This document shows positions 13,252 through 20,911 of a stretch of 64,000 nucleotides of DNA, one piece after another. Within the stretch, counting starts at the first letter, position 1. Each line of letters opens with the position of its first letter. The notes beneath the pieces are model-generated. The model ran no database searches. It was not told where the DNA came from and worked only from the letters and a program-made list of their open reading frames with translations. A program made the translations under genes and the position numbers. Source of the DNA: Sulfitobacter sp. SK012. Its GTDB lineage: Bacteria > Pseudomonadota > Alphaproteobacteria > Rhodobacterales > Rhodobacteraceae. The stretch spans positions 2,790,001 to 2,854,000 of the forward strand of contig NZ_CP025804.1 of assembly GCF_003352085.1 (NCBI RefSeq). The letters are read 5' to 3'.

Positions 13252-14628
13252 CTATTTGGTTATGATCTCGGGGCCCATCATCAGCGTCGGTAGCCATGTC
13301 GACAGGATCGGGATGTAGGTCACCATAATCAGGAACACAAAGAGCACCGCGAGGAATGGCAGTGCCGCCCGCACAACTCGCATCATCGGCATGTTCGCCA
13401 CCCCTGAGGTCACAAACAGATTGAGCCCCACAGGCGGTGTGATCATCCCGATCTCCATGTTGACCACCATGATGATACCAAGGTGAATGGGATCGATCCC
13501 CAGCTCGATCGCAATTGGAAATACCAGCGGCGCGACAATCACCAACAAGCCCGACGGCTCCATGAACTGCCCACCAATCAGCAAGATGACGTTCACAATC
13601 ACCAAGAAGATCACTGGGCCAAAGCCCGCACTCAGCATAGCTGCTGAAATCTGCTGCGGAATTTGTTCGTCAGTCAGTACGTGCTTTAGGATCAACGCAT
13701 TGGCGATGATGAACATCAACGTCACCGTCAGCTTGCCCGCCTCGAACAGGGTATCGCGCGTGTCGCGGTGGAAAAATACGGTGACCAACGCCATCGGCTT
13801 TTTCATGAATGGAATGTTCGGCGCGTCGCCTTTCACGTGCAACGGCCCCATATCGCGGTAGACGAATGTGGCGATAAAGAACGCATAGATCGCAGCAACG
13901 GCCGCAGCCTCGGTTGGCGTGAAAATGCCCCCATAAATACCGCCCAAGATGATCACGATCAGAAAAAGGCCCCAGCCTGCTTCGATCCCGCTGCGGCGCA
14001 CTTCGCCCCAGCCTTTCCAGTCGCCTTTGGGAAGGTCGCGGACCCGAGCGATGATGTAGATCGTCAGCATCAGCATGAGACCTGCAATGAGCCCTGGGAT
14101 CACCCCCGCTAGAAACATCCGCCCCACGGAAACATCCGTGGCAGAGGCATAGACCACCATCACGATGGACGGTGGGATTAAGATGCCAAGCGTGCCCGCC
14201 ACGGCGATGACGCCTGCGGCAAAATCCTTGGTGTAGCCAACTTCACGCATGCCCACGATCACGATTGATCCGATGGCCACAACCGTCGCGGGTGAGGATC
14301 CGCTCAAAGCGGCGAACATCATACACGCGAATACGCCCGCAATCGCCAGACCGCCGGGCAAATGTCCTACCAATGCGATGGAAAACCGGATGATCCGCCG
14401 CGCCACACCGCCCGTCGACATAAACGACGACGCCAGAATGAAAAACGGAATGGCCAGCAACGTGTAATGCCCGGCCATCGCTTGAAAAAACGTCTGCGCG
14501 ATGGACGCAAGCGATGTGTCTGAGAGCACAAGTAGGAACACGATGGACGACATGCCAAGCGACACCGCAATCGGCACCCCGATCAGCATCAGGCCGACAA
14601 CCATGGTAAAAAGGACGATAACTTCCAT
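13252..14628 (-). CDS. dctM: TRAP transporter large permease, DctM type
   Basis: This 458-residue integral membrane protein is the ion-coupled transport subunit of a TRAP system. It is hydrophobic throughout, with the usual dozen or so helices and family segments such as LMLIGVPIAVSLGMSS near the N-terminus and GILIPPSIVMVVYA in the middle. It lies four bases downstream of dctQ and is the last gene of dctPQM. The regulator genes dctBD nearby suggest a C4-dicarboxylate or similar organic acid as substrate, but this is inferred from context. Confidence 0.93.
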   Translation of the reverse strand: MEVIVLFTMVVGLMLIGVPIAVSLGMSSIVFLLVLSDTSLASIAQTFFQAMAGHYTLLAIPFFILASSFMSTGGVARRIIRFSIALVGHLPGGLAIAGVFACMMFAALSGSSPATVVAIGSIVIVGMREVGYTKDFAAGVIAVAGTLGILIPPSIVMVVYASATDVSVGRMFLAGVIPGLIAGLMLMLTIYIIARVRDLPKGDWKGWGEVRRSGIEAGWGLFLIVIILGGIYGGIFTPTEAAAVAAIYAFFIATFVYRDMGPLHVKGDAPNIPFMKKPMALVTVFFHRDTRDTLFEAGKLTVTLMFIIANALILKHVLTDEQIPQQISAAMLSAGFGPVIFLVIVNVILLIGGQFMEPSGLLVIVAPLVFPIAIELGIDPIHLGIIMVVNMEIGMITPPVGLNLFVTSGVANMPMMRVVRAALPFLAVLFVFLIMVTYIPILSTWLPTLMMGPEIITK

Positions 14629-14632
14629 GGTC

Positions 14633-15361
14633 TTAACCCTCGGCGTTCAAGTGTTTGACGTCTTCGACTGCATCTTCTGCCTCATGGCTGACGATCAGAC
14701 TGTCTTGGCGGCCCGACATGACCTTTAGCGTGGCTTGCACAAAGCGCAGCAGCAGCAGAAAGGCCCCAAAAGGCAGCATGAAATATGGAATGAAACGCGG
14801 CAGCTTCTCGTAAGCCTCGCCTTCGTTCATGATCGGCTCAATAAAGCGGAGCCATTCTGGAAACGGTATGTCGATAACTTCGTACCATGCCTGATCGCGA
14901 CTGTTTTCAAACCCTATGGGGAACCAACGGCCAGACGTCGCATCCAGCCCTGCAAAAGGCGCCCAATAATCCCACGCACCTTTAAACAAGAGCGCCGCGT
15001 AGATTACACAGACCAGCCCTGCAAGAACGGCTACCGCTTTACGCGGGCCCGGTGCGAATAGGTTGATGATCGCATCTACGCCCAGATGCGCAGTCACTTT
15101 GACCGCATAGCTCATGCCAAACAGCACCAGCCACGCAAACAGGAACGTCACCACTTCGAGGCCCCAAATCAGACCACCGGGAAAATCGACCCCCAGCATT
15201 GCCTCAACCTTGCGGCCAAAAGCCGAGTTCAGCACATAGCGCAGAACCACATTGATAAAGGTGATGATGGTCATCAGCCCGAGGATCACCGCAATGGCAG
15301 TCTCTTCGATTTCGCTGACAATTCGCCCAAGTAGCGTCTGCTCGTCATGATCCGCCGACAT
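14633..15361 (-). CDS. dctQ: TRAP transporter small permease, DctQ type
   Basis: The small membrane subunit of the TRAP transporter has four predicted helices; 242 residues is long for a DctQ because of an extended loop (WDYWAPFAGLDATSGRWFPI region) between helices 3 and 4. The start MSADHDEQTLLGRIV at 15361 is preferred: the minus strand shows GGGGAGGGG seven bases upstream. A TTG further upstream would lie within that ribosome-binding site. It is separated from dctP by an attenuator-like hairpin and sits four bases before dctM. Confidence 0.88.
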   Translation of the reverse strand: MSADHDEQTLLGRIVSEIEETAIAVILGLMTIITFINVVLRYVLNSAFGRKVEAMLGVDFPGGLIWGLEVVTFLFAWLVLFGMSYAVKVTAHLGVDAIINLFAPGPRKAVAVLAGLVCVIYAALLFKGAWDYWAPFAGLDATSGRWFPIGFENSRDQAWYEVIDIPFPEWLRFIEPIMNEGEAYEKLPRFIPYFMLPFGAFLLLLRFVQATLKVMSGRQDSLIVSHEAEDAVEDVKHLNAEG

Positions 15362-15386
15362 GAACCAACCCCTCCCCAAGGTGCCG

Positions 15387-15440: not shown

Positions 15441-16442
15441 TTAGTGCTTGGCGTTGATCGCCTGTGCCGCGTCGACATTTTCTTGGCCAACGTCACCGAT
15501 GAACTGCTCCCAAACAGGCTTCATCGTTGAAACCCACTCTTCGCGCTGTGTTGCATCCAGTTCACGTACAACGCCGCCGGCGTCCAGAATGGCCTGCTTG
15601 GCTTCTGCGTTCACTTTGGTGGATTCAGAGTTACGCGCCTCGGTGACTTCATCAATGATGGTGCCAAGCTGCGTGCGGACGTCATCTGGCAGGCTGTCCC
15701 ACCAGTCGGTGGACGTCACGAGCATATAATCGATGATGCCGTGGTTGGTTTCTGTGACACCGTCCTGAACTTCAAAGAACTTCTTGCCATAGATGTTGGA
15801 CCAGGTGTTTTCCTGACCGTCCACAACGCCAGTTTGCAGCGCGCCATAAACTTCGGAGAACGCCATTGGCTGGGGTGAGCCACCCATTGCCGCCATCTGC
15901 GCTTTGAGCACCTCAGAGTTTTGCACCCGGAACTTCAGGCCATTTGCGTCTGCAGGTGAGTTCAGTGGCGTGTTGGCAGACATTTGCTTCATGCCATTGT
16001 GCCAGAACGCCAAGCCAAGAAGCCCACGACGTGTCATGCTTTCCTTCATCGCTTGACCTGTTTCGGAGGTCTGGAATTCGTCTACAGCGTCGATGTTTTT
16101 GAACATGAACGGCAGATCGAAGATACGGAATTGCTTGGTGAACTGCTCAAACTTGGACAGCGACGGGGCGGCCAGTTGAACATCCCCCTGCAGCAGAGCT
16201 TCGAGCACCTGGTCATCGTTATAAAGCGTCGAGTTCGGGAAAACTTCGATGCAGGCTTTGCCATTCATCTCGTCGTTCACGCGCTGCTCCAGCAAAGTGG
16301 CTGCGATGCCCTTTGGGTGCTTGTCGGTATTGGTGACGTGGCTCAACTTGATGACGATTTCGCCATCATCACAGGCCGCTGCGACGGCACCGGCGCTGAC
16401 AGAAAGGCTTAGGGCCACTGTGGCCGCGGTAAGAATTTTCAT
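15441..16442 (-). CDS. dctP: TRAP transporter substrate-binding protein, DctP type
   Basis: This 333-residue periplasmic receptor has a clear signal peptide (MKILTAATVALSLSVSAGAV, cleaved near the following AAA/CDD). The mature DctP fold includes IVIKLSHVTNTDKHPKG and the ligand-binding KFRVQNSEVLKAQMAAMGG region with the conserved arginine that pairs with carboxylates. It is the first gene of dctPQM, after a GGGAGGAG ribosome-binding site. Two palindromic DctD-type sites lie 183-232 bases before its start. The substrate is likely a C4-dicarboxylate given the neighbouring DctBD system, though TRAP receptors vary widely. Confidence 0.92.
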   Translation of the reverse strand: MKILTAATVALSLSVSAGAVAAACDDGEIVIKLSHVTNTDKHPKGIAATLLEQRVNDEMNGKACIEVFPNSTLYNDDQVLEALLQGDVQLAAPSLSKFEQFTKQFRIFDLPFMFKNIDAVDEFQTSETGQAMKESMTRRGLLGLAFWHNGMKQMSANTPLNSPADANGLKFRVQNSEVLKAQMAAMGGSPQPMAFSEVYGALQTGVVDGQENTWSNIYGKKFFEVQDGVTETNHGIIDYMLVTSTDWWDSLPDDVRTQLGTIIDEVTEARNSESTKVNAEAKQAILDAGGVVRELDATQREEWVSTMKPVWEQFIGDVGQENVDAAQAINAKH

Positions 16443-16624
16443 GGTGTCTCCTCCCAGAGAATCAAAGGGGTCTGCCGATTTTGTGACAGTACTATTTTAG
16501 AAAACACCAACGCGGGCGGGCTCGCAAGGTTGTGATGAACGCGATACAACTATCGCCAAAGGCGTTATATTTCAGTGCGTTGCAGTGATATTTTAAGTGC
16601 CCGCAGAAACCATCCGTGACCCAA

Positions 16625-16642
16625 TGTGCGATAAACCGCACA
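16625..16642 (-). promoter_or_regulatory. DctD-type upstream activator site A
   Basis: TGTGCG (16625-16630), six bases, then CGCACA (16637-16642) form an inverted repeat. It is the same 18-base length and core as site B. The two sites are 32 bases apart, close to three helical turns, and lie upstream of dctP. The palindrome resembles the DctD-binding sites known upstream of rhizobial dctA. Confidence 0.7.
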
Positions 16643-16656
16643 GGGCAAATGGCCCC

Positions 16657-16674
16657 TGTGCGGAAATCCGCACA
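16657..16674 (-). promoter_or_regulatory. DctD-type upstream activator site B
   Basis: TGTGCGGAAATCCGCACA is a near-perfect palindrome with 8-bp arms. It ends three bases before the dctD stop codon and precedes site A in the dctP direction. Searching by eye between these sites and the dctP start, I found no GG-N10-GC sigma54 promoter. Confidence 0.75.
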
Positions 16675-16676
16675 GA

Positions 16677-17906
16677 TCAGCGGCGAAAATCTTCGGGGCG
16701 GATGCCATAGCGAGCCAGTTTGTCGTAGAAGGTTTTGCGCGGCAGTTTCAACGCCTCAGCAGTGTCTGTGGCGTTGCCATTGTGACGGCCAAGGGCAGCG
16801 GACAGAAGGCTGCGTTCAATCCGAGCCATCTGATCAGTCAGGCCCAATTCCGTCGTGTGAGAGATTTCCTCGGGCATACCAAGCACAAAGCGCATTGCGG
16901 CACTCATCAGGGACCGTGCATTGCCGGGCCAATCTTGCACCATCAGGCCGTTCAAATGCTCAGAACTGATCTTGGGTGGCGCAAGGCCCGCCTGCTCGGA
17001 GGCCTGCATTACATATTGCTGAAACAGAATTGGAATGTCTTCGGGCCGCTCGGACAGGCTCGGAATACGTACCGCCATACCATCCAGACGGTAGAAAAGC
17101 TCGGTGTTGAACCGGCCACCAGCAACTTCAGCGCTCAAGTCACGCGTTGTCCCGGCAATCAATCGCGCCGCGGTGCCGCCCTCAAGTGTTTCGATCAATG
17201 CAAGCTGAGTCGCAGGAGGCATTTGGGCAATTTCGTCAATGAACAAACAGCCAATGTCGGCATCTTCCAACACCGCAGCAAGCTCTTTGGGGTGCAGCCC
17301 GCCGCCAGCGCATTTCACAAACGGAGCCTTCGAGCGGGCCGAGCTCAGGTGGATCACTTCGGCAACCTTGGAAATCCCAGTGCCCGCCGCACCTGTGACC
17401 AACACATCCGCTTCGGCCTGTGCCAGACGGCGGACCCGAACGCGCAGTTCTTGCGACAAAGGTGACGCGCCAAAGATCATCCGGGCCGCCGGATCGCCCG
17501 TTTCGACCAGTTGCGTCAGCCGCCGGTTTTCCAAAACCAACGCACGGGTTTTCAACGCACGCTCTAACACCGCCAACAGGTCAGCCGGCGCGCAGGGTTT
17601 TTCAAGGAAATCAAAGGCACCCTGCCCCATTGCTTGCACGGCCATGGGGATGTCACCCTCGCCGGTCAGCAAAATCACCGGCAGATCAGGGTCCACTGCA
17701 TGGGCGTGCGACAACAGGTGAAACCCATCGCGTCCCGGCATCCGCATATCTGACAGGATCACCCCATCAAAGTCGGGGGTAATCTTGTCTTTTGCCACGA
17801 CAAACGACGCCGCCGGCAAACAGGTCAGATCCGCCAGTTCAAGCGTCTGCGCCAAGGCCTCGCGCACGGCGGCATCATCATCAACCAACAATACTGTGGT
17901 GCTCAT
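16677..17906 (-). CDS. dctD: DctD-like response regulator lacking GAFTGA and Walker A lysine
   Basis: This 409-residue protein has a receiver domain (1-120; Asp53 phosphorylation site, Lys103), an NtrC-type AAA+ domain (about 140-345) and a Fis-type helix-turn-helix (NATDTAEALKLPRKTFYDKL). The AAA+ module is degenerate. Walker A reads GAAGTGIS (172-179), with isoleucine for the essential lysine. The stretch that should hold the FG..GAFTGA loop is missing: FVKCAGGGLHPKELAAVLED runs straight to CLFIDEIAQMP. The protein is therefore unlikely to drive sigma54. ATGA overlaps the dctB stop. Its targets are probably the two palindromes before dctP. Confidence 0.88.
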   Translation of the reverse strand: MSTTVLLVDDDAAVREALAQTLELADLTCLPAASFVVAKDKITPDFDGVILSDMRMPGRDGFHLLSHAHAVDPDLPVILLTGEGDIPMAVQAMGQGAFDFLEKPCAPADLLAVLERALKTRALVLENRRLTQLVETGDPAARMIFGASPLSQELRVRVRRLAQAEADVLVTGAAGTGISKVAEVIHLSSARSKAPFVKCAGGGLHPKELAAVLEDADIGCLFIDEIAQMPPATQLALIETLEGGTAARLIAGTTRDLSAEVAGGRFNTELFYRLDGMAVRIPSLSERPEDIPILFQQYVMQASEQAGLAPPKISSEHLNGLMVQDWPGNARSLMSAAMRFVLGMPEEISHTTELGLTDQMARIERSLLSAALGRHNGNATDTAEALKLPRKTFYDKLARYGIRPEDFRR

Positions 17907-19669
17907 GCCGCGTCTTCCTGTTCAAGCTCGCGCTCCAACGTCACCGAGAAAAGTGCGCCGCCGCCTTCGCAGTTGGTGCCTTTGATCTGCCCGCCAAAAC
18001 TTTGCACGATGCCATAGCTGATCGACAGGCCAAGGCCCATCCCCCCGGTCTCTCCGTCCGTTTTTGTTGTATAGAACGGGTCGAAAATTTTGTCCGGCAT
18101 CTCGACGCCCGGGCCTGTGTCCTGAAAATTGACTGTCAACATTTTGCCCTGCGACACCTGCACCCGCAGTACTTTTATCTCGCTTGTGGCCATCGCATCC
18201 ACCGCATTGGTGATCAGGTTCACGAACACCTGACTAAGCCGGACCTCGCCGCCGCGCACCCAGATCGGGCCCGGTGCCGGATCATACTGCAGCGTCACGC
18301 CCGCCTCTTCGATGTGACTGCGCGTGAGGTCAAACGCGGCATCAAGTGCAGCACCCAGATCAACATGTCCCTGCGGTGTGTTTTCTTGTCGTGAAAAAGC
18401 GCGCAGGTTTTTGATAATCCGCGCCATACGCCGGGCCATGTCAGAGATACGCGTCAGGTTTTCAGCAGCCCGCGCAGGATTATCACGTTCCAGAAACTGC
18501 ACTGCGTTTTCGGAAAAAGACCGGATCGCCATCAAAGGTTGGTTCAGCTCGTGACTAATCCCAGCGCTCATTTGCCCAAGGGCCGACAGCTTTGAGGCCT
18601 GCACCAACTCGTCTTGGGCACGACGCAGCGCGGCTTGCGCCTCTTCGCGCACTGCAGCTTCATGATGCAAAGCGGTATTGATCTCGGCCAAGGCGGCTGT
18701 GCGGCTGGCGACCCGCTCTTCAAGCTGAGCGTTGGCGCGCGCAAGAGTGCGCCGCCGCTCCGTCGCCAAAAACAACAGCGCCCCGAAAGCAAGGCACAGC
18801 GCTGCCACGGCGGCGGCTTGGCTTGCAGCAAGGCGGCGCGCAGGAGCCACATCAAGCAACACCTCTCCCGTCATGCCAATCACAGGCAAGGCTTGGGTCA
18901 AGTGAAGCGCCTCTCGCGGCAGATATGGGCCCCAGCCCAGTTGCCAAATTTCAAGTGTGCCTTCCATACTCGATGAAAACGGAGGTGCTTTGCCTTGCGC
19001 GGGCTGCAATCCCGGCTCCCCCGGCGGTCTGCGCCAAAAAACGAGTTCCGACCGGTTCGAGATTTGGACAACGCCCTGTGGATCGGTAAAGAACACCGCC
19101 GGATTTGCCCCACGCCAGCTGTAATCAATTCCGTTCAGATCGGTGGACACGACCAACACGCCGTTAACCTGCGCTGCGTCGTCAAAAATGGGAGAGGCAT
19201 GAAAAAACACCCGCGGGGTCTGCGCGTTCCTTGGCCCATGGCCCCACCCAAGCGCGCCTTGCAACGCCCGGCGAATGTAGGGTTTGCTGATAAAATCAAC
19301 TTCAGTGCGACTGGCGAGCGCCCAATTCGCAGCCGCGCGCAGCTTGCCATCTCGGTCAAGCACCTGCACATCAAGTGCCGCAGATTTATCGGCAACCTCC
19401 TGCAACAGCGCAATATCGGCAGGTTGCGGATCACGCCGGAGCATTTCATCCACCTGCGGATGACCCGCCATCAATACAGCAAGATCGCGGTAGCGTTGCA
19501 ATTGCCCCACCAACCGGTCGCTGGCCAGCGCCAGATCGGCCTGCCCGCGCGCCGCCAATTGGCCCATCGCCTGATCAGTGCCATAGCGCCAGACACCGAG
19601 CGACCCTGCCGCCACGGCCCCAAGAAACACCAACACCACAACGGCGCGACTGATTGCTGCATTTTTCAT
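17903..19669 (-). CDS. dctB: DctB-like sensor histidine kinase
   Basis: This 588-residue membrane kinase begins MKNAAISRAVVVLVFLGAVA (first transmembrane helix). It then has a periplasmic double-PAS-type sensor region of about 240 residues and a second helix (AAAVAALCLAFGALLFLA). A coiled coil (RANAQLEERVASRTAALAEI) precedes the HisKA domain with SALGQMSAGISHELNQPLMA and the HATPase domain (NLITNAVDAM, DTGPGVE, GGMGLGLSISYG). It pairs with dctD through a four-base overlap. The open frame continues 909 bases further upstream, but that part is antisense to the P450 gene and shows no homology, so the start at 19669 is chosen. Confidence 0.92.
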   Translation of the reverse strand: MKNAAISRAVVVLVFLGAVAAGSLGVWRYGTDQAMGQLAARGQADLALASDRLVGQLQRYRDLAVLMAGHPQVDEMLRRDPQPADIALLQEVADKSAALDVQVLDRDGKLRAAANWALASRTEVDFISKPYIRRALQGALGWGHGPRNAQTPRVFFHASPIFDDAAQVNGVLVVSTDLNGIDYSWRGANPAVFFTDPQGVVQISNRSELVFWRRPPGEPGLQPAQGKAPPFSSSMEGTLEIWQLGWGPYLPREALHLTQALPVIGMTGEVLLDVAPARRLAASQAAAVAALCLAFGALLFLATERRRTLARANAQLEERVASRTAALAEINTALHHEAAVREEAQAALRRAQDELVQASKLSALGQMSAGISHELNQPLMAIRSFSENAVQFLERDNPARAAENLTRISDMARRMARIIKNLRAFSRQENTPQGHVDLGAALDAAFDLTRSHIEEAGVTLQYDPAPGPIWVRGGEVRLSQVFVNLITNAVDAMATSEIKVLRVQVSQGKMLTVNFQDTGPGVEMPDKIFDPFYTTKTDGETGGMGLGLSISYGIVQSFGGQIKGTNCEGGGALFSVTLERELEQEDAA

Positions 19670-19729
19670 CTTGGCAACTTTATGCACACCCCCTTGCGTT
19701 GACCAGCCTTGCGCGTTCATGTGAGCGCT

Positions 19730-20911
19730 ATGACAACTCTGCACCAATCCCCGCTTGATCCTGAATTCATTCAGAACCCCTATCCGTTTTACGATCACGC
19801 CCGCGATGTTGGGCCGGTCGTGTTCTGGCAAGACTACAATATGCTGGCTGCCTTTGATGCCGCCACAGTGCAGGCGCTGTTGCGCGACCGTCGGTTGGGC
19901 CGCGAAATACCAGCCGACCAGCGCCAAGAGGCGGCCCCGCACCTTGGCCCCTTTGATGCGGTCGAACGCCACTCCATGCTTGAGTTGGAACCGCCAAGCC
20001 ACACGCGACTGCGCGGACTGGTGCTGCGGGCCTTCACCTCTCGGACGATTGCGGGGCTGCGCCCTGACATCGAAGCGGTCACGGCTGAACTCTTGGCCAC
20101 ACTCCCACAGGGCGAGGTCGATTTGATCCCGCATTTCTGCACGCAACTCCCTGTGCGCATTATCGCGCGATTGTTGGGCGTCCCCGAAGAAATGTCGCCT
20201 GACTTGTTGGCATGGTCGAACGCGATGGTGGCGATGTATCAGGCCAACCGCAGTCGCGCGATTGAGGATGCCGCCGCCACAGCCGCCGCTGAATTTACCG
20301 ATTTTTTGCAGAGCTACATTGCGAAACGCCGCAGCGATCCGCGCGACGATTTGATCACCCACCTGATCGCCGCCGAAGAAGGTGGCGAACGCCTGAGCAC
20401 TCCAGAACTGATCGGGACTTGCATTTTGCTGCTGAACGCCGGGCACGAGGCCACGGTGCATAGTTTGGGCAATGCGGTGAAGTGTTTGCTTGAAGCGGAC
20501 ACGCCCCGTGCCGCACTGGACCCTGATACAATTGCAGCCACAACCGAAGAATTGCTGCGGTTCGACCCGCCTCTGCATATGTTCACACGCTATGCCTACG
20601 AAGACGTCCAGCTTGGCGACGTCACCCTGAAAAAGGGCGCGCAGATTGCGTTAATGCTGGGGTCTGCGGGCCGTGATCCGGCGACGTATCCTGCGCCGGC
20701 AGCGTTTGATCCCGCGCGTCCAGCCAAACCGCACGCGGCTTTTGGTGGAGGTTTGCATTTTTGCGTTGGGGCCCCTTTGGCCCGGCTCGAGCTGCACATC
20801 GCCCTACCCGCGTTGTTCGATCACCTGCCAAAGATGCAATTGGTCGAGACGCCGCGTTACGCCGACAGCTACCATTTCCACAAACTAGAACGGTTGCTGG
20901 TGACCGGCTAA
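19730..20911 (+). CDS. Cytochrome P450
   Basis: This 393-residue soluble bacterial P450 has the I-helix oxygen-activating motif AGHEAT, the K-helix ExxR (EELLRFDPP), and the heme loop FGGGLHFCVGAPLARLE with the thiolate ligand Cys345. It lacks a membrane anchor. No ferredoxin or ferredoxin reductase gene lies next to it, so it must borrow redox partners; an fpr is 5 kb downstream. The start ATG at 19730 gives MTTLHQSPLDPEF; an upstream GTG is possible. It is divergent from dctB and overlaps the Lrp-type gene by four bases at its 3' end. The substrate is unknown. Confidence 0.92.
   Translation: MTTLHQSPLDPEFIQNPYPFYDHARDVGPVVFWQDYNMLAAFDAATVQALLRDRRLGREIPADQRQEAAPHLGPFDAVERHSMLELEPPSHTRLRGLVLRAFTSRTIAGLRPDIEAVTAELLATLPQGEVDLIPHFCTQLPVRIIARLLGVPEEMSPDLLAWSNAMVAMYQANRSRAIEDAAATAAAEFTDFLQSYIAKRRSDPRDDLITHLIAAEEGGERLSTPELIGTCILLLNAGHEATVHSLGNAVKCLLEADTPRAALDPDTIAATTEELLRFDPPLHMFTRYAYEDVQLGDVTLKKGAQIALMLGSAGRDPATYPAPAAFDPARPAKPHAAFGGGLHFCVGAPLARLELHIALPALFDHLPKMQLVETPRYADSYHFHKLERLLVTG

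Follow-up and report, generated by a model that had tools for sequence, protein, structure and literature searches.

An altered DctD regulator upstream of dctPQM in Sulfitobacter and related Rhodobacterales, with probable sigma54-independent control of C4-dicarboxylate uptake

The dct locus and the altered motifs of DctD

The window analysed here, a stretch of 64,000 nucleotides from Sulfitobacter sp. SK012, carries on its minus strand a sensor kinase gene, dctB (17903..19669), which codes for HisKA and HATPase_c domains together with a weak Cache match below the curated cut-off, followed by dctD (16677..17906), whose 409-residue product contains a receiver, a stripped AAA+ domain, a lid and a Fis-type HTH. 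The presumed target of DctD, dctP (15441..16442), encodes a TRAP solute-binding protein, and dctQ (14633..15379) and dctM (13252..14628) encode the small and the large TRAP permease. Two palindromes lie between dctD and dctP, UAS1 (TGTGCGGATTTCCGCACA, 16657..16674) and UAS2 (TGTGCGGTTTATCGCACA, 16625..16642), which begin 2 bp past the dctD stop and are 32 bp apart from centre to centre, just as the first-pass annotation had described two TGTGCG-N6-CGCACA sites before dctP. An ORF adjoining dctB on the opposite strand (19709-20911, plus) has what by eye is a cytochrome P450-like haem motif.

The motif names used below (Walker, GAFTGA, sensor, Arg finger) are used in their usual sense, and the residues assigned to them in DctD come from the alignment. 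Walker A (17370..17393, minus) reads GAAGTGIS from G172 to the Ser, with Ile178 replacing the Lys, and the GAFTGA loop is deleted; both had been claimed previously and both hold. The L1 segment (17238..17315, minus), which runs from PFV to the Walker B Asp, has 26 residues against 45 in 31 of the 34 comparison DctDs, a set in which 26 proteins have GAFTGA or GSFTGA, four have GAFPGA and four have neither, and from which L323 (371 aa) was left out. Two further alterations add to these: L2, the pre-sensor I insertion between Walker B and sensor I (17148..17231, minus), is also shortened, with 28 residues against 40 in 34/34 comparison DctDs, and Asn267 takes the place of the first Arg finger. 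Arg273, the second Arg finger, and the sensor II Arg331 are kept, sensor I has a Thr, and the clade-specific residues Lys180 and Glu183 stand just after Walker A. The losses stand when the AAA+ domain is aligned with the comparison DctDs, and three features expected of a functional sigma54-dependent bEBP are missing: the first Arg finger, the Walker A Lys and the GAFTGA loop. An AlphaFold2 model of DctD (mean pLDDT 87.8, pTM 0.55) places helix 178-187 directly after the P-loop, and among solved structures it comes nearest to NtrX, NtrC-type activators, VpsR and FleQ, with low TM-scores of about 0.46 over the whole chain and about 0.7 (by target length) against lone AAA+ domains.

Distribution and phylogeny of the altered DctD

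The first-pass annotation had allowed for the deletion being a local sequencing error and had proposed a survey of Roseobacter DctDs. Among the best 120 of 3948 protein homologues, one of them the window's own protein, the Walker A Lys position holds Ile in 111 and Val in 9, and all have the 26-residue segment; since homologues share the lost Lys and the short segment, the deletion is not a sequencing error. An extra 121st aligned row with Lys is P0121, the DctD-2 of R. pomeroyi. The survey covered 295 genomes of the window's own family, of which 274 have a DctD match at E <= 1e-50, and the best loci listed were read, one per genome; named relatives such as Ruegeria, Roseovarius and Sulfitobacter suggest Roseobacter-group Rhodobacterales, and partial matches in G079 and G220 fall outside the survey set. 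From it we defined class A, 122 DctD orthologues in 122 genomes, one per genome. That the DctD of the window belongs to the DctD orthologue group is indicated by the adjoining sensor kinase gene, by palindromes of the kind seen at rhizobial DctD loci and by the position of its clade within the comparison DctDs.

The deletion is common to all class A members, each of which has a 26-residue L1, lacks the first Arg finger and has another residue in place of the Walker A Lys (Ile 63, Thr 36, Val 14, Asn 4, Leu 3, Met 1, Ser 1), whilst the receiver residues Asp53 and Lys103 are retained in 122/122. In Walker B the Asp is retained in 116/122 and the Glu in 104/122, and the three P-loop glycines are present in 121, 122 and 120 of the 122. 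Every member has Lys or Arg at position 180, and 121 have Glu at position 183; in the other groups residue 180 is mostly V, L or M and residue 183 mostly Arg (H, Y or F in group E). The retained glycines and the near-invariant Lys180/Glu183 make class A look remodelled rather than simply decayed. Of 123 orthologue loci examined, 122 have an unbroken dctD frame. In the remaining one, L127 (G009), a stop codon interrupts dctD, and the locus also contains matches to dctB and dctP; L127 was left out of the protein counts, as was L186, a 174-residue frame of another group.

In a tree of 181 DctD-type proteins class A is monophyletic (support 0.845), and its sister is a seven-member paralogue, group E (L165, L166, L167, L169, L172, L177 and L181), with a joint support of 0.999. 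Group E has the same two loop deletions as class A, Lys in place of the Walker B Asp and no sensor II Arg, and keeps Lys or Arg in Walker A; no match to the window's DctP was found in the fetched group E loci. The three proteins of group B, which branches outside A and E (0.935), have a partial loop (L1 of 36 and L2 of 38-39 residues) and keep the Walker A Lys, and A, E and B all branch from within the comparison DctDs. As the simplest order, these sequences suggest that GAFTGA was lost first, then the rest of L1 together with L2, and then, in class A, the Walker A Lys. Three types of locus survive in living Alphaproteobacteria: the first combines GAFTGA with a -24/-12-like element, the second pairs a partial loop with the Walker A Lys, and the third has neither, so that each step of the change could be tested separately.

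Other DctD-like loci were seen in passing. One group, part of L170-L183, keeps the Walker A Lys, and of its 11 family loci that were read 9 carry GAFPGA, GAYPGA or GSFPGA; four class-level loci with GAFPGA (L324, L326-L328) keep this Lys too. Four more (L318, L269, L270 and L272) have the Walker A Lys and are without GAFTGA; in L318 and L272 the palindrome is present and the best -24/-12 score is 7 and 8 of 12, as a sigma54-independent reading predicts, and these two are possibly independent cases of the same change.

Palindromes, promoter region and sigma54

UAS1 and UAS2 are the only exact TGTGCG-N6-CGCACA sites in the 5.18 Mb genome (reversed-pattern control, 0). Palindromes with one mismatch occur 14 times elsewhere, against 11 in the control, which is about chance, and we therefore claim no wider regulon. 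A site of at least 10/12 is present in 107/107 class A loci with dctP within 1 kb, a footprint set that excludes the other 15 of the 122. The first site averages 228 bp before the dctP ATG with an SD of 15.5, against an SD of 120.9 when measured from the dctD stop, and 90 of the 107 loci have paired sites, spaced 32, 33 or 34 bp in 34, 53 and 3 of them. Four of the 15 excluded loci carry a site ahead of a dctP that lies farther off within the locus. For nine others, in whose dctD locus no dctP was found, the genome's best dctP is preceded by a site at 217-248 bp in 9/9 genomes. The position of the palindromes in relatives is tied to dctP rather than to dctD. No palindrome was found at the second DctP-like gene of G228 (L345), nor at 11/12 or better in L082, and L168 has a palindrome on a contig that ends there.

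The absence of GG-N10-GC between the palindromes and dctP, noted from the start, was confirmed over the 180 bp before the dctP ATG. A -24/-12 score of at least 10/12 occurs in 10/10 GAFTGA- or GSFTGA-bearing loci with a palindrome (12, 12, 12, 11, 11, 10, 10, 10, 10 and 10), for which the scan took in 220 bp to either side of a site scoring 11/12 or better, and in 0/107 class A loci, rpoN-bearing genomes included, scanned over 200 bp on the one side before dctP, where the best scores are 6-9 of 12. Shuffles of the class A regions reach 10 in 10/535, and the best score in the window is 8/12. Within one set of 29 comparison loci, 8 show a palindrome of at least 11/12 in the fetched stretch and the rest are uninformative on promoter type. 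A sigma54 element before dctP, which would have spoken against the first-pass annotation, is thus absent from all 107 loci at this threshold, as judged by sequence.

What is conserved there is a sigma70-spaced element. The footprint of the 107 regions consists, in order, of the palindromes, an AT-rich IHF-like element, a TTG and, 17 bp past the TTG hexamer, TTnnCT, in which the first T has a conservation of 0.58 and the last T of 0.81. In the window the candidate -35 is TTGCGA (16522..16527, minus), whose TTG is conserved in 97-98% of the 107 loci, and the candidate -10 is TTTTCT (16499..16504, minus), taken from the footprint, with a 17 bp spacer and a predicted start near 16492, which would place the centres of UAS1 and UAS2 at about -174 and -142. 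In an alignment-free test TTGnnn-N17-TnnnnT was present in 62/107 regions (mean 12.7 and maximum 21 in 40 shuffle runs); among ten other spacers, those of 13 (35), 22 (26), 12 (24), 18 (22) and 20 (20) exceeded the shuffle maximum by less and five did not exceed it. A scan with the strict sigma70 consensus found no promoter before dctP, where TTGCGA-N17-TTTTCT matches 7/12 bases, and the case for the candidate accordingly comes from comparing genomes. For a gene that depends on an activator, a weak promoter is to be expected.

The candidate IHF-like element of the window (CAACGCACTGAAA, 16570..16582, minus) was found with the IHF consensus, relaxed at one position. At 8/9 or better it occurs in 82/107 loci, against 28 for the other strand and 177/1070 in shuffles, and the strict consensus occurs in 53/107; 63 of the 82 elements sit at -57 to -55 from the TTG. 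The relaxed motif was picked after the alignment had been seen, so this element is a lead only. IHF has been reported to stimulate DctD-mediated activation of dctA in R. leguminosarum and not in S. meliloti (PMC9827912).

Profile searches of the window genome, which is rated 100% complete, gave no PF04552 or PF04963 match for rpoN, and both profiles matched in the positive controls E. coli, B. subtilis, Caulobacter and Bacteroides. A PF04552 match is present in 100 of the 295 family genomes (92 over the cut-off) and missing from 195, some of which are incomplete, which makes the label 'sigma-54 dependent' given to these proteins in public sources doubtful. Within class A, a strong rpoN match was found in 26/122 genomes, in one case to a fragment that contains a stop; the other 96/122 are counted as without rpoN, including six with a weak partial PF04552 match (E about 1e-4 or worse), of which that of G075 is just over the cut-off. 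R. pomeroyi SZCCDBG043 has an rpoN match; in total, 3/8 named genomes tested have one. Sigma54 absence is therefore not a condition for the losses in DctD, and sigma54 loss alone was rejected as their cause, since 26/122 class A genomes and R. pomeroyi keep rpoN. The rpoN match at G031:C54:1297-1632 lies in a 118 aa frame with an internal TAG stop and is possibly, judging by its sequence, a relic of sigma54 loss. Six proteins of the window genome exceed the PF14532 cut-off (L033-L038), NtrC- and NtrX-like ones among them. None of the six has a GAFTGA-like motif (five by pattern, L038 by eye), and only DctD has lost the Walker A Lys, which the other five keep; a seventh match below the cut-off (L039) looks like another kind of AAA protein.

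Activation without sigma54, its alternatives and known systems

The switch away from sigma54 first suggested for this regulator is supported by the missing rpoN match, by the 0/107 result for -24/-12 and by the conserved sigma70-spaced element. We put the probability at roughly 0.75 that DctD is a phosphorylation-switched, sigma54-independent activator of dctPQM acting via a sigma70-type polymerase, a reading in which we infer promoter use, the part of IHF, the oligomer and nucleotide state and the positive sign of control. DctD would descend from a sigma54 activator DctD and would now activate dctPQM without sigma54. DctB would sense C4-dicarboxylates and phosphorylate Asp53 of DctD, and DctD~P would then occupy the two palindromes, which at 32-33 bp apart would lie on one face of the DNA. 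Assisted by DNA bending, perhaps by IHF, DctD~P may recruit or stabilise a sigma70-type RNA polymerase at the weak promoter TTG-N20-TnnnnT. ATP hydrolysis would be unnecessary, with the AAA+ domain serving as a scaffold for oligomer formation and contacts, and the domain may still bind nucleotide through its remodelled P-loop. More tentatively, the P-loop could have been rebuilt rather than lost, in which case nucleotide, if bound, would be a static ligand that sets the oligomer, while IHF bends the tandem sites to the sigma70 promoter.

Data from R. pomeroyi bear on the sign of control. In a conspecific strain DctD is encoded between the sensor gene and dctP; the protein shows the same loop loss, and the sites are spaced 32 bp. 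The dctPQM-type transporter has been reported as the only fumarate uptake system of R. pomeroyi (PMC10130141). Transposon mutants of strain DSS-3 in dctM (SPO2626), dctP (SPO2628) and SPO2630 reportedly lost 99.1%, 96.7% and 96.9% of OD on fumarate and 92.6%, 75.2% and 81.8% on succinate; on malate the OD loss was significant for dctM only, and drawdown was reduced in all three mutants (PMC10130141). One source calls SPO2630 a C4-dicarboxylate transport sensor protein (PMC4809877), another a TRAP regulatory protein (PMC10041152), and because of these annotations we take it as DctB. In algal co-culture, compared with a glucose control, dctM, dctQ and dctP were reported as 3.8-, 3.2- and 2.3-fold upregulated (PMC9870897), and in co-culture competition fitness loss was described for the SPO2630 mutant in 1/3 treatments and for the SPO2626 and SPO2627 mutants in 2/3 each (PMC10041152). 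The same source reports that a mutant of SPOA0237 (dctD-2) loses fitness like its TRAP mutants; by gene order SPOA0237 matches P0121, which has lost GAFTGA and kept the Walker A Lys. A phenotype for SPO2629 (DctD) was not found in the main text of PMC10130141, PMC10041152 or PMC9870897. The R. pomeroyi mutants fit positive control of dctP.

Since SPO2630 is annotated as a sensor, its phenotype also fits a repressor that is relieved by phosphorylation, with DctD on the palindromes blocking dctP until DctB phosphorylates it, and does not by itself separate repression from activation. TyrR-type proteins and Caulobacter NtrC, which have no normal GAFTGA, are reported to repress some promoters too. 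However, the sites precede the predicted start by about 140-175 bp, do not cover the candidate promoter and are still arranged in tandem as in GAFTGA-bearing DctD loci, and the dctD-2 mutant, like its TRAP mutants, is negative in fitness. Repression, the alternative that the first-pass annotation had offered, is disfavoured by site position and mutant phenotypes, and we regard it as unlikely.

It is less probable still that DctD works even now with sigma54 via another surface in those genomes that have sigma54. Caulobacter NtrC, whose protein is without GAFTGA, is reported to promote some sigma54-dependent genes in DNA-binding mutants, so loss of the loop alone is no proof of sigma54 independence, and a strong rpoN match is found in the 26 class A genomes mentioned above. 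Against this, L1 and L2 are both shortened, no class A locus reaches the -24/-12 threshold even where rpoN is present, and the window genome itself has no rpoN match.

Decay of DctD into a non-functional regulator, leaving dctP constitutive, seems very improbable. The AAA+ domain is indeed the least conserved domain of class A, with a mean pairwise identity of 0.51 against 0.70 for the receiver and HTH, and is the most conserved one in the comparison DctDs (0.55), but the open frame persists in all but one orthologue locus, the clade-specific residues are near-invariant, the palindromes keep a fixed distance to dctP and the sensor mutant of R. pomeroyi has a reported phenotype. Equally improbable, and rejected, is that the palindromes are a dctBD terminator rather than an operator: they start right behind the dctD stop and fold into a stable RNA hairpin (z = -4.05), but their distance is kept to dctP and not to dctD, they accompany dctP where it is located elsewhere, and a terminator scan was negative at the palindromes.

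As a sigma54-independent activator, DctD would be a traceable case in which an enhancer-type activator has seemingly changed its polymerase partner and kept its DNA sites, and it appears to switch on the uptake of C4 acids such as succinate in a family with many marine species. GAFTGA-less activators of the sigma54 type that work with sigma70 are already known from TyrR, DhaR, HupR and the NtrC proteins of R. capsulatus and Caulobacter, and for NtrC of Rhodobacterales the deletion of the loop has been described before (PMC3162934, PMC10274813). A search that covered mainly the openly accessible literature found no report of such a loss in this group's DctD. Two things seem new. One is the DctD case itself, in which two loops are shortened, the Walker A Lys is replaced and Lys180/Glu183 form a signature; the other is the history of its cis-elements, in which the sites are kept, -24/-12 is absent and a sigma70-spaced element is present.

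The best NCBIfam match of DctD is PgtA (NF047793), a similarly short profile of 414 positions that is matched over nearly the full length; identity with PgtA was rejected at 253.5 bits against a cut-off of 650, and no literature on PgtA together with GAFTGA was found. The DctDs of S. medicae (pSMED01), Azospirillum B510 and Phyllobacterium 628 share the receiver-AAA+-HTH layout, and in all three a 12/12 site lies upstream of dctB, with a second match of 10, 9 and 10 of 12 at 33, 34 and 32 bp. Unlike the DctD of the window, they have GAFTGA, the Walker A Lys and a -24/-12-like element (10-12/12) upstream of dctB; in Phyllobacterium that gap separates dctB from a gene annotated as a dicarboxylate symporter, not from dctP. 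TyrR, DhaR and HupR are sigma54-type proteins with an altered or deleted GAFTGA that are reported to be sigma54-independent, and VpsR is suspected to be so; these four differ from DctD in their signals and sites. The analogy first drawn with R. capsulatus NtrC stands in part: that protein likewise has no GAFTGA loop, and activation through sigma70 is reported for it, but ATP binding is reported as essential there, whereas here the Walker A Lys is gone and the P-loop glycines and the Lys180/Glu183 pair are conserved; it also serves nitrogen, not C4 acids, in R. capsulatus. Caulobacter NtrC likewise shares the GAFTGA deletion with DctD and acts at sigma70 promoters, but its Walker A and B motifs are reported to be required.
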